Source: Bryobacterales bacterium (lineage in GTDB: Bacteria > Acidobacteriota > Terriglobia > Bryobacterales > UBA6623). From it: a DNA stretch of 64,000 nucleotides. The stretch lies in contig JAJDTX010000105.1 of NCBI GenBank assembly GCA_022826925.1, positions 62,001-126,000 on the forward strand. The letters run 5' to 3'. Shown here piece by piece: positions 41,294 to 51,669 of this stretch. The position numbers and the translations under genes were made by a program. Position 1 is the first letter of the stretch; each line of letters opens with the position of its first letter. Below the pieces are notes generated by a model. That model ran no database searches, had not been told where the DNA came from, and was given only the letters and a program-made list of their open reading frames with translations.

Positions 41294-42073
41294 CTACACC
41301 CTCGTGAGGTAGTCTTGGCGGCCGCCATCGGCCATCATGAATTGTCCGGTGATGAACCCGCTCGCCGGGGAGCACAGAAAGCCCGTCAGGTGCGCAATGT
41401 CCTCGGGTTCTCCGGTCCGTCCGACCAGCGAACGCTCGGCGACGTTCTCAAGCAGCCGGTCGAGCTCGTCTTGGGTCTTGCCCGACATAACCATGTCGGT
41501 CTTCGTGAATCCCGGCAGCACGGCGTTCACCGTGATGCCTTTCGGAGACAGCTCGAAGGCCATGCGCTTCGTGAGCGTGAGCACCGCTCCCTTGGTCACC
41601 GCGTACAGCGTGGTGCCTGCCATCGCCGTCCCGATGGCCGCGTTGGAAGCCAGGTTCACGATCCGGCCCCAGCCCCGCCGGATCATCTCGGGCGCCACTG
41701 CCTCCGAGCAGTATAGGACTCCCTTGACGTTGGTCCGCCACATGCTGTCGAACTCGTCCTCGCTGTAGGCCAGCAACTCTCCGCTGTGCAGCAGTCCGGC
41801 GTTATTGACCAAGATGTCGGGCGCGCCCAGATCAGCCTCCACCTGTTTCGCCATCGCGATGACTTCCGAGCGCCTTGAGACATCAGCCTGGATCGTTGTG
41901 GCGGACATCCCGAGGTCGCGCACCGCGGCTGCTGTTGCTTCCGCCTCCGTCGCGCGGCTTCGGTAATTCACCGCCACGCGGGCTCCGCGATGGGCCAGTT
42001 CCAGGCAGACCGCGCGGCCAATACCGCGCGACCCGCCGGTAACCAGAGCCGTCTTGCCCTCCAGATCTTGCAT
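41294..42073 (-). CDS. Short-chain dehydrogenase/reductase (FabG-like)
   Basis: A 259-residue classical SDR. Cofactor motif ALVTGGSRGIGRAV, structural NNAG (ILVNNAGLL), catalytic Ser in VNLASNAAIG and YAVTKGA with the YxxxK pair. The C-terminal end FITGQFMMADGGRQ is typical. NADPH preference is suggested by Arg after the second strand (VNYRSR). It resembles 3-oxoacyl-ACP reductases but stands alone, so the substrate is open. It is read in the same direction as the RG-tail gene at 42138, 64 bp downstream of that gene's stop. Confidence 0.88.
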   Translation of the reverse strand: MQDLEGKTALVTGGSRGIGRAVCLELAHRGARVAVNYRSRATEAEATAAAVRDLGMSATTIQADVSRRSEVIAMAKQVEADLGAPDILVNNAGLLHSGELLAYSEDEFDSMWRTNVKGVLYCSEAVAPEMIRRGWGRIVNLASNAAIGTAMAGTTLYAVTKGAVLTLTKRMAFELSPKGITVNAVLPGFTKTDMVMSGKTQDELDRLLENVAERSLVGRTGEPEDIAHLTGFLCSPASGFITGQFMMADGGRQDYLTRV

Positions 42074-42137: not shown

Positions 42138-42464
42138 CTATTCTCCGTAGCTACTGTCGTCATCGTCGTCGCCGTACTGTGAGTATCTCGGCCTGGGGCG
42201 ATCCCGTTCGAAGCCGCGGTCCCGGTCGCGGTCGTACGGCCCGCGACCGCGGTTGCCGAACGCCGGGCGGCCCCTGTCCTCGAACGAACGGCCGCGCCCT
42301 TCGAACGGTCGTGACCCTCGATCCTCGTATTGCCGAGGTGCCCGGTCGAACTGCGGCCGGCCCCGGTCTCCATAGGGCGGGCGCGAGCCTCGGTCGAACT
42401 GCGGCCGGCCCCGATCCTCGTAGGATGGCCGGGGGCCGCGGTCGAATGTCGGCCGCGGACGCAT
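42138..42464 (-). repeat. Region coding the RG-rich tail, with imperfect tandem repeats
   Basis: The DNA for the tail contains repeated units; for example a 23-bp stretch, beginning CGGTCGAACTGCGGCC on the plus strand, occurs twice about 46 bp apart (near 42346 and 42392). The repeats keep the reading frame, so the tail may change length by slippage or recombination. Confidence 0.65.
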
Positions 42465-43583
42465 CTGCGTCTTGCGCAGCTTCGCCTCCGACTCGCGCAT
42501 GCGCCCCTCGATGGAGTGGTTCTCCTCGGTGAGGGATTGCTGGATCTCTAGGGCGAGCTTGAGCTCGTCGCGAAGCATCGCCACATGCCGGCTCGAAGCG
42601 GCCAGCTGATCGGCTGCGCTAGCATCGTTCTCGGCCAGGGTCGCGCTCTCAAGTTCAATGCAGGGAAGCATCGCCGACACGAAGGGGATCACGTCGTGGC
42701 CCAGCCGCCAGCCCCGCAGGCTTTCGCGTGCTGCCATCCAGCGCAGCAGAGAGCCCAGCTTGGCCGCGGTCTCGGGCGTATCCATTCGATGCGGCATGAA
42801 CAAGTCGTGGCCGCCTTCCGGATCGGCCCTGTCGTTGAAGCCAGACAAGTACACTCGCATGGCTCCGCGATAGACCGACAGACGCTTCCCGAAGCGGTTG
42901 GTGAGCTTCCACGTGTACTCGGCAGGCAGCACGATCACCTTTGCGATGCCCAGCGTGTCCGCCGTGAGCGGCATTGGGTCCAGCAACGGGCGTACGGGAT
43001 CCTCCGCTTCTTCCGGCACCGTCAGCACGAAGGCCGGCGTGCGCCGGTCGGGATCGACCAAGAACTCGGCCAGGTTCGCCGCGTCGTACTCGGACTCGAC
43101 GACCCACGGCTCCTTCTCGATCTTGGCGGCACCCTGTTCCATGGTGCATTCCTTAACCACATGCTCGAGGAATCCTGGCACCCTCGGTTGCACCCGCATC
43201 TTCGTTTCGGTGGATTTCGCCAGCGTGCGCAGGCAGAACTCGGCATCCTCCCCGGGCCGCTCGCGGATTGCGACCTCGGTGGTCCACTCTCTCTCGATGT
43301 CACCCTCTTCGGGCTCTACGAAGCGCAGAGCCCACGTATCCGAGCCGTCCTCTTTCGCGTGGACGGCCGCAAATGTCCGCCTGTCGGCTTCGTGGTGGAA
43401 GGCATCGCCGGACCACGCCTCGTCCGGCAGCTCGGTCTTGGAAGCGCTCTCCAGCCACTCCAAGGTGATCTCGCGGGCGGTGTCGGTCTTGTCCAGATGA
43501 GCCGCGATGCGCAGGATCTCGCGTGTCCGAGGGGCTACTCTTGTCCGGCTCTGGTCGTAGGTTGGTTTATCGTGGTGAAGCAT
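42138..43583 (-). CDS. Unrecognised protein with coiled-coil segment and RG-rich low-complexity tail
   Basis: About 481 residues from ATG 43583 (a longer frame from 43718 is less likely). I do not recognise the family. Residues 1-330 look like a mixed alpha/beta protein; the best-shaped motif is GKRLSVYRGAMRVYLSGF after VIVLPAEYTWKLTNR. A helical, probably coiled-coil segment (ELKLALEIQQSLTEENHSIE) follows at about 335-370. The last 108 residues (374-481) are repeats of the type RPxFDRG, YEDRGRPQFDRG and RGRSFEDRG, ending in an acidic DDDDD stretch. Such arginine/aromatic tails are common in RNA-binding or condensate-forming proteins. It may bind RNA, DNA or chaperone a complex; that is inference only. 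Confidence 0.7.
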   Translation of the reverse strand: MLHHDKPTYDQSRTRVAPRTREILRIAAHLDKTDTAREITLEWLESASKTELPDEAWSGDAFHHEADRRTFAAVHAKEDGSDTWALRFVEPEEGDIEREWTTEVAIRERPGEDAEFCLRTLAKSTETKMRVQPRVPGFLEHVVKECTMEQGAAKIEKEPWVVESEYDAANLAEFLVDPDRRTPAFVLTVPEEAEDPVRPLLDPMPLTADTLGIAKVIVLPAEYTWKLTNRFGKRLSVYRGAMRVYLSGFNDRADPEGGHDLFMPHRMDTPETAAKLGSLLRWMAARESLRGWRLGHDVIPFVSAMLPCIELESATLAENDASAADQLAASSRHVAMLRDELKLALEIQQSLTEENHSIEGRMRESEAKLRKTQMRPRPTFDRGPRPSYEDRGRPQFDRGSRPPYGDRGRPQFDRAPRQYEDRGSRPFEGRGRSFEDRGRPAFGNRGRGPYDRDRDRGFERDRPRPRYSQYGDDDDDSSYGE

Positions 43584-44092
43584 AGCGTTCTCTTGATTCC
43601 AGTACTGCTCTTTGCGCCCGCCCCAGGCGGGCGTTCCCGGGATACCGTTCTCGCCGCCACGTCCAAGCGCACCCGGCTGCGCCCGAAGCGACGCTCGTCC
43701 GCCACTGGCCCTAATCACCTGCCTTGGCGACTTGCGGGGACTGTGCGCCGGCTCACTTCCGAAACTTCCGCATTTCTAGAAGAATAGCTGCGAAAAATAT
43801 ACCAGATTAGCGTAGCACCTAGCGGGATTTCGTGCTCAGCCGCCGAATCTAGGCGGTCTCGGGCGGAAGCCTGCGGTCGCCCTGAGCTGTGGAAGCCGGG
43901 GGAGCTTTGGCCATGGCGGAGGGCAGGCAGGCGCCCGCGCGTTGCCTTCCTTGCCGCGGCGATTTCTTCGCTGCCGCACCGAGGCCGGGCCGATTCTGCT
44001 ACCCTTCGGTGCAGCCCCGCCGCTGACGAGCAGCCGCGGGCTTGATGACGATATCAGGAACGGCGGGAAGCGGGCCGCCGAAAGGAAATGAG
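43584..44092. other. Divergent intergenic region, A+T-rich island at 43760-43820
   Basis: About 500 bp with no gene. The A+T-rich island has a TATATT -10-like box on the minus strand (43801-43796) and a CTTCCG-AAA-CTTCCG direct repeat (43757-43771). If used, that promoter would give the RG-tail gene a leader of about 200 nt. The right end carries the transporter's AAAGGA ribosome site. Confidence 0.4.
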
Positions 44093-50419: not shown

Positions 50420-50464
50420 CCACTGTCAACATTGCGGAGCCGGCCGTGCGACGTGGAACGGGCA

Positions 50465-51055
50465 ATGAGGCGCTATTACATCACCGATCGCAGAACCTGC
50501 CCTGGCGGCTTGCTTGACTGCATCGAGGTGAACGCCAGGCGCGGCTGCTCTTGGATCCAGCTCCGCGAGAAGGACCTGGCCCCCCGGGATCTGCTCGAAC
50601 TGGCGCGCGCCGCCTTGGCCCGCGTCCGTCCCCACGGGACCGCGATCCTCGTCAACAGCCGCTTGGACGTCGCGCTCGCCGCAGGCGCGCACGGAGTCCA
50701 CCTGCCGGCTGGCTCGCCCGCTCCTTGCGATCTCAGGCCTGTCGTGCCATCCGGCTTCCTGATCGCGGTGTCCGCGCATACCGTCGACGAAGTCCGCCGG
50801 GCGGAACGGGAGGGGGCCGATCTTGCGGTCTTTGGCCCGGTGTTTCCGACGCGGTCCAAACCGGGCCGGAGCGAGATCCCCGGCCTCGGAGGGCTGCGCG
50901 AGGCGTGCGCGGCGACCTCGTTGCCGGTGGCCGCTCTGGGAGGCATCACAGCGGAACGAATCGCCGCCTGCACGGACGCCGGCGCGGCGGGCATCGCCGG
51001 AATCAGCATGTTCCAGTCCCTCTGCGGCCCTGCCGGCACTCATGGGGAGGGCTGA
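50465..51055 (+). CDS. thiE: Thiamine phosphate synthase
   Basis: About 196 residues. The TIM-barrel motifs are RYYITDRRTC at the start, WIQLREKDLAPRDLLELA, ILVNSRLDVALAAGAHGVHLP, FGPVFPTRSKPG and LPVAALGGITAERIAAC. It couples hydroxymethylpyrimidine diphosphate with thiazole phosphate. ATG 50465 puts RYYITD at the N-terminus as in the family; TTG 50432 is also open. It is divergent from dnaK and shares its upstream region. No other thiamine gene is nearby. The 3' end overlaps the convergent YdeI-like gene by 16 bp. Confidence 0.88.
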   Translation: MRRYYITDRRTCPGGLLDCIEVNARRGCSWIQLREKDLAPRDLLELARAALARVRPHGTAILVNSRLDVALAAGAHGVHLPAGSPAPCDLRPVVPSGFLIAVSAHTVDEVRRAEREGADLAVFGPVFPTRSKPGRSEIPGLGGLREACAATSLPVAALGGITAERIAACTDAGAAGIAGISMFQSLCGPAGTHGEG

Positions 51056-51669
51056 CCGGGCCCGCGCCGCGCCGTTCGGCGTTTCGGCCGCAGCTTTACC
51101 GCCCAGCGCAGCGGCGGTATCGGCTCGCCGCGCAAGCTGCACTCAATCAGGGTCTCGAGCCTCTTCTGGCGGGTCTGTTCTCGTTTCGCGCTGACGATCC
51201 AGTGTGCGCAATGCTTGCGGTAGGATGGCGTCGCGCCGGCGAAGCACTCCCACGCCTCCAGTACCGCCTTGATCTTGCGCTCGTATTCCTCGGGCAAGGC
51301 CGCAGCCGCGGGCTCCCGTGCAGCTGGCGCCCGGCGCAGGCTGCCTGCTGATTCGAACGTCGCCCGCGCGGCCTCTTCGACCAGCCCGGCCTTGATCAGA
51401 GCCCGCATGCGCTCGATGTTCCTGGCGCTCCAGCTGCTGCCGGGACGACGGGGGGTAAAGCGCACCCGGTAGCTGCGCTCGTCGATCCTCTGGCGAAGCC
51501 CGTCAATCCAGCCGAAGCACAGCGCCACGTCGACCGATTGCGGCCAAGTCACGCTAGGCTCGCCGGTGGCAACCTTGTAGTAGCCGATCCATTGCTCGTC
51601 AGCCGTCTCGTGGTTGTCGCGAAACCACTTCCTGAGCTCGTCTGCGTCGGAGAAGAACAGTACCGGCAT
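51040..51669 (-). CDS. YdeI/OmpD-associated family protein
   Basis: A 209-residue cytoplasmic protein. The N-terminal domain (FSDADELRKWFRDNH, DEQWIGYYKVATGEPSVTW, ALCFGWIDGLRQRIDERSY) and the phrase FTPRRPGSSWSARNIERMRALI are diagnostic of the YdeI/OmpD-associated family. The C-terminal part (EAWECFAGATPSYRKHCAHWI, AKREQTRQKRLETLIE) is the second conserved block. Biochemical function is not established. Monocistronic, convergent with thiE. Confidence 0.85.
   Translation of the reverse strand: MPVLFFSDADELRKWFRDNHETADEQWIGYYKVATGEPSVTWPQSVDVALCFGWIDGLRQRIDERSYRVRFTPRRPGSSWSARNIERMRALIKAGLVEEAARATFESAGSLRRAPAAREPAAAALPEEYERKIKAVLEAWECFAGATPSYRKHCAHWIVSAKREQTRQKRLETLIECSLRGEPIPPLRWAVKLRPKRRTARRGPGQPSP

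Follow-up and report, generated by a model that had tools for sequence, protein, structure and literature searches.

A gene in a Bryobacterales genome (Acidobacteriota), within a 64,000-nucleotide stretch of DNA (hereinafter the window), raises the question of what kind of bacterial protein carries a long disordered tail rich in arginine, glycine and aromatic residues, and what that tail might do. The original prediction had placed this gene correctly at 42138-43583 and was silent on its strand. The plus strand of this interval contains stops, whereas the minus strand is a single ORF of 481 aa starting at 43583 and ending at 42138, which places the gene on that strand. Its ATG is further supported by the relative at locus L002, in which a stop precedes the same ATG by 13 codons. 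The A+T-rich divergent region said to separate the gene from the transporters is present, albeit modest and only local (GC 0.49-0.55 at 43700-43849 as against ~0.65). The features of the locus are collected in Table 1.

Table 1. Features of the RG-tailed gene and its immediate surroundings, in window positions
Feature	Position	Strand	Evidence
Whole gene, 481 aa, ATG start 43583	42138..43583	-	Single ORF; start backed by upstream stop in L002
Residues 1-300, HEC-07 N-terminal domain including VYRGAMRVYLSGF at 237-249	42684..43583	-	PADLOC PDLC04161 match; family-wide conserved positions retained
Residues 301-373, helical and coiled-coil linker	42465..42683	-	AlphaFold2 helices 299-318 and 323-372; PADLOC match to 375
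Residues 374-481, disordered RG/F-D-R-G tail with aromatic period of 8 residues, in place of the HEC-07 C-terminal domain	42141..42464	-	pLDDT, composition, spacing, dN/dS; C-domain absence
48-bp imperfect tandem repeat, 2.4 copies, two octads encoded per unit	42343..42455	-	DNA repeat
Short-chain dehydrogenase (SDR) gene, co-directional, 64 bp downstream	41294..42073	-	Pfam PF13561; synteny
Divergent intergenic region toward the SDF transporter gene, with a modest A+T-rich patch	43584..44041	.	Composition; SDF gene from 44042, PF00375

The front part of the protein, whose family had been left unnamed, belongs to HEC-07. In a profile search the PADLOC-DB model PDLC04161 matched residues 11-375 with E=1.2e-87, and three more models of this family (represented in PADLOC-DB by PDLC04158-04161) matched at 1e-9 to 1e-20. 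The motif VYRGAMRVYLSGF that had been pointed out is indeed present, and is a conserved segment of the HEC-07 family itself (G-A-x-R-x-Y, within a wider (V)Y.GA.R.Y.PGF segment); the family-wide conserved positions P136, L175, R180, G212, G232 and R243 are likewise retained. To our knowledge HEC-07 is a candidate anti-phage family with no known mechanism, and our literature search recovered no paper naming it. Membership of the N-terminal part in a well-described family of known function had been held to speak against the original prediction; as HEC-07 is a family whose function is not known, our match counters that prediction only by half. More generally, HECs are Hma-embedded candidates, a set of candidate defence genes of which some are reported to be antiviral (PMC12988326, citing the preprint doi 10.1101/2024.01.29.577857).

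Searches of Pfam, NCBIfam and PHROGs were of no help with either the N-domain or the C-domain of the family; the best Pfam matches, GBP_C (E=0.02-0.04) and Pantoate_ligase (E ~0.1), fall below the cut-off and are probably coiled-coil artefacts. An AlphaFold2 model of the window protein, built from a 14-sequence alignment, is moderately confident (mean pLDDT 57). Foldseek searches with its N-domain gave no match in the PDB at E<=0.001: a START/Bet v 1-like fold was rejected (E>=0.01, TM <0.2 by query), as was one match among viral models at 5e-4 (TM 0.14). Profile searches of PDB sequences returned only chance matches, mostly on the coiled coil, and no known RNA-binding or RNA-processing folded domain was found with Pfam, NCBIfam or among PDB folds at E<=0.001.

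Canonical HEC-07 proteins of the same class and phylum are ~520-700 aa long and consist of the N-domain, a coiled coil and a C-terminal domain that ends in '..H.KgG..RDP.RCLRIYfFWD..qqVVvg.mPxHr.t'. In the window protein the match to the model stops at position 387 of 553, where this C-domain (model positions ~388-553) begins. Its closest canonical counterparts from the same class (G109/L028 and G254/L027), which share 35-37% identity over the N-domain and the same succession of N-domain and coiled coil, instead match the model through to position 553 and possess the full C-domain (..CLRIYYFWD..QVVV..MPxHRRTDAS). The C-domain is present in nearly all sampled N-domain proteins outside the genus, the exceptions being L116, the pair L038/L105, which ends differently, and the fragment L042. 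It is found in none of the proteins of the RG clade, nor did we find a protein containing it anywhere in the window's own genome, and a gap of only 64 bp separates the RG gene from the next one. In the window genus, then, the HEC-07 C-domain has been exchanged for the RG tail, and the RG-tailed protein is a new form within a family that is known, though without a characterised mechanism. The AlphaFold2 model of a full-length HEC-07 protein (L048; mean pLDDT 45.6) was too poor for the C-domain to be read.

The different C-terminus of L038 (G202) and L105 (G013), 'HYKLTFQDDDRYTFTLPKSGSDHRGGLNAASDI', follows HEC-07-like N-domains and is named by no Pfam model; a HicA-like identity that we considered for it was without Pfam support. 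Its presence suggests that the C-terminal part of HEC-07 has been exchanged more than once. The HEC-07 C-domain, in turn, occurs in shorter plasmid proteins (L059:8560-9462 and L060:8443-9408), each followed directly by a gene for a 358-364-aa hypothetical protein, with which it might form a separate two-gene module; a HipA-family toxin gene lies within ~4 kb in both cases.

The RG-tailed form is present in 11 of the 11 genomes of the genus, although two of the copies are truncated where their contigs stop; in other genera of the family this version is absent. In the phylogenetic tree these proteins form a monophyletic clade (91/95). As far as the contigs reach, and with the exception of L010, the order of the flanking genes is constant: sulfatase, SDR, RG gene, SDF and SNF transporters, a MerR regulator (probably hspR), dnaJ and dnaK, with the SDR after the RG gene in every locus of this gene order that extends so far. 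Throughout the genus the RG-tailed form thus occupies a single, fixed chromosomal position. In the sister genus (G014) the SDR and the SDF and SNF transporters are found in the same arrangement, and the slot between them is occupied by an unrelated 3-keto-disaccharide hydrolase (PF06439; L089:5407-6627), which indicates that the slot between the SDR and the SDF transporter changes its occupant between genera. The most parsimonious account is that the gene entered this slot, by gain or by a swap, close to the root of the genus, where it has been kept since. The copy in L010 is RG-tailed and stands on a contig binned as Chloroflexi with none of the flanking genes of the window; it may have been mis-binned or have moved. 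As a separate observation, the ORF upstream of dnaK (50426-51142, minus strand) is conserved in position throughout the genus at 37-85% identity and has no Pfam match at 1e-5; a grpE label would rest on its position.

Canonical HEC-07 shows a very different pattern of occurrence. A match of any kind, the RG clade included, was obtained in only 15-18 genomes per ~300-400 sampled, and the full-length canonical relatives are long-branched in the tree. Several of them occur sporadically beside defence genes or mobile elements: AbiEi/AbiEii (L053), a type II methyltransferase and restriction enzyme (L052), a DruE-like protein (L065) and, in a genome of the window's own genus (G005), a phosphorothioation/Dnd-associated methyltransferase (TIGR04096) on one side and a phage integrase on the other (L061:3584-5290). 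A second genome of this genus (G006) also carries a canonical full-length copy (L062:9239-11251). Not every canonical copy is embedded in such an island, as the two closest canonical relatives in the class are single accessory genes, one of which adjoins a class II ribonucleotide reductase while the other has genes for ribosomal proteins and RNA polymerase in its vicinity.

These neighbourhoods speak for the view that the window gene is still an anti-phage gene, albeit one of the core genome: its N-domain would detect infection, with the RG tail replacing the C-domain as an effector that binds or sequesters RNA. The retention of the conserved N-domain residues agrees with it, as does the definition of the HEC families as defence candidates, some of them reported active (PMC12988326, citing the 2024 preprint). 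Nevertheless, we consider it a somewhat unlikely explanation: the window gene lies outside any defence island, surrounded in constant order by genes for metabolism, transport and chaperones; it is inherited vertically and evolves slowly, unlike the long-branched, sporadic canonical members; and a search of a phage collection recovered no homologue that would hint at an arms race.

The tail itself (27 R, no K, 10 RG and 7 DRG in 108 residues) consists of 25% arginine, 14% glycine, 20% aspartate and glutamate, 13% aromatic residues and 13% proline. No other ORF in any of the six frames of the window has a 100-residue stretch as rich in R+G+D+F+Y (69, with 53 for the next). Successive aromatic residues are spaced by 8,8,8,8,7,8,7,8,8,8,9,3 and 9 positions, an evenness matched by 0 of 5000 shuffles, and the tail can accordingly be described as a quasi-octad repeat of roughly the form [F/Y]-x-D-R-G-x-R-P. 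AlphaFold2 assigns pLDDT <40 to residues 380-481 and <50 from 374 onwards, predicting disorder. The low-complexity tail of the original prediction is thereby borne out, save that DDDDD stands near its end and is followed by SSYGE. The likeness that had been drawn to eukaryotic RGG/RG proteins holds for composition and goes no further: the tail is predicted disordered and alternates arginine with glycine and aromatics as theirs do, but it lacks RGG (0-1 in the tails of relatives), has many DRG/RP units and a fifth of acidic residues, and shares no domain with them. No second copy of the tail was found in the window's own genome, the two weak matches (E=0.44 and 0.65) falling in ordinary ORFs.

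The RG-tailed gene is under purifying selection, with dN/dS among close relatives of 0.02-0.10 for the N-domain and 0.10-0.17 for the tail. Substitutions in the tail at codon positions 1/2/3 number 6/3/20 and 8/2/21 in comparisons of close relatives; their concentration at third positions implies that the tail frame is translated and selected, and rules out a frame artefact as the origin of the tail. Every relative in the genus with a sequenced C-terminus has a tail, and all tails examined, distant ones included, are devoid of lysine and contain 22-33% arginine. In diverged relatives this composition is preserved while sequence and length are not: lengths range from 39 aa (L012) to 109 aa across the subclades of the genus. 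Of six tails, three (those of the window, L007 and L009) have non-randomly spaced aromatics; L008 and L012 do not show this, and aromatics are scarce in L010. Regular spacing of such stickers is evidently not needed throughout the genus, given the short tail of L012 and the weak or absent period in L008, L010 and L012. The suggestion that DNA repeats could alter tail length finds some support in the 48-bp repeat and in the differences across the genus, but the length is constant at 108-109 aa in the window protein and its four closest relatives, leaving no sign of fast length switching.

The same data bear on the idea that the tail is an inert leftover, a functionless extension that slipping repeats in GC-rich DNA produced once the C-domain had been lost, with only the N-domain mattering. 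The strong divergence of the tails between subclades, the slippage displayed by the 48-bp repeat and the GC-rich codons of arginine, glycine and proline are as this idea would have it. The low dN/dS of the tail with its mostly third-position substitutions, the uniform lack of lysine and the 22-33% arginine even in distant tails, and the non-random aromatic spacing in half of those analysed are hard to accommodate, and we deem it unlikely. Quite improbable is a housekeeping role of the N-domain together with the SDR in lipid or ketone metabolism, the tail tethering the pair to nucleic acid or membrane: the SDR is co-directional and separated by a short gap in every syntenic locus of the genus that reaches it, but the sister genus keeps SDR and transporters with another gene in the slot, and the N-domain has no metabolic-enzyme match in Pfam, NCBIfam or PDB folds.

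The explanation that we favour, though tentatively, is that the protein is a domesticated HEC-07 member that now acts as a resident scaffold, with a role in stress or RNA physiology. The swap of the terminal domain for a tail and the retention of the gene throughout the genus suggest a passage from mobile immune gene to stable resident protein. As the family-wide conserved residues are intact, the N-domain would still recognise a ligand or partner, while the coiled coil may dimerise. The tail, with one aromatic per 8 residues between arginine-rich spacers, has a composition from which binding to RNA or another nucleic acid might be expected, and it could associate weakly with itself through multivalent aromatic and arginine contacts. 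Such a protein, rather than acting as a sporadic mobile immune gene, would gather nucleic acid or partner proteins; judging from its sequence, the resident protein probably binds RNA or itself. A bacterial condensate scaffold with an arginine-rich disordered tail is known in RNase E of BR-bodies (PMC10412687), which resembles the window protein in the way it might work, a folded part being followed by such a tail; the two are not homologous, and no catalytic RNase domain was detected in the window protein. In its most specific form, which we regard as doubtful, the proposal would have a mobile immune protein give up its effector domain, receive an RNA-binding RG/aromatic disordered tail in exchange and so become, by domestication, a condensate scaffold of the core genome; if true, this would constitute a bacterial conversion from immunity to housekeeping by way of a disordered region.

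That the N-domain stays under strong selection in proteins without the C-domain points to a selectable function which the N-domain and coiled coil possess by themselves, and this natural variant separates the parts of HEC-07 for experiment. The tails of 39-109 aa likewise provide a natural series on what such a disordered region needs. Should the tail condense with RNA, this would be a case of a defence-derived protein that gained a disordered region and became fixed in an uncultured lineage of Acidobacteriota.
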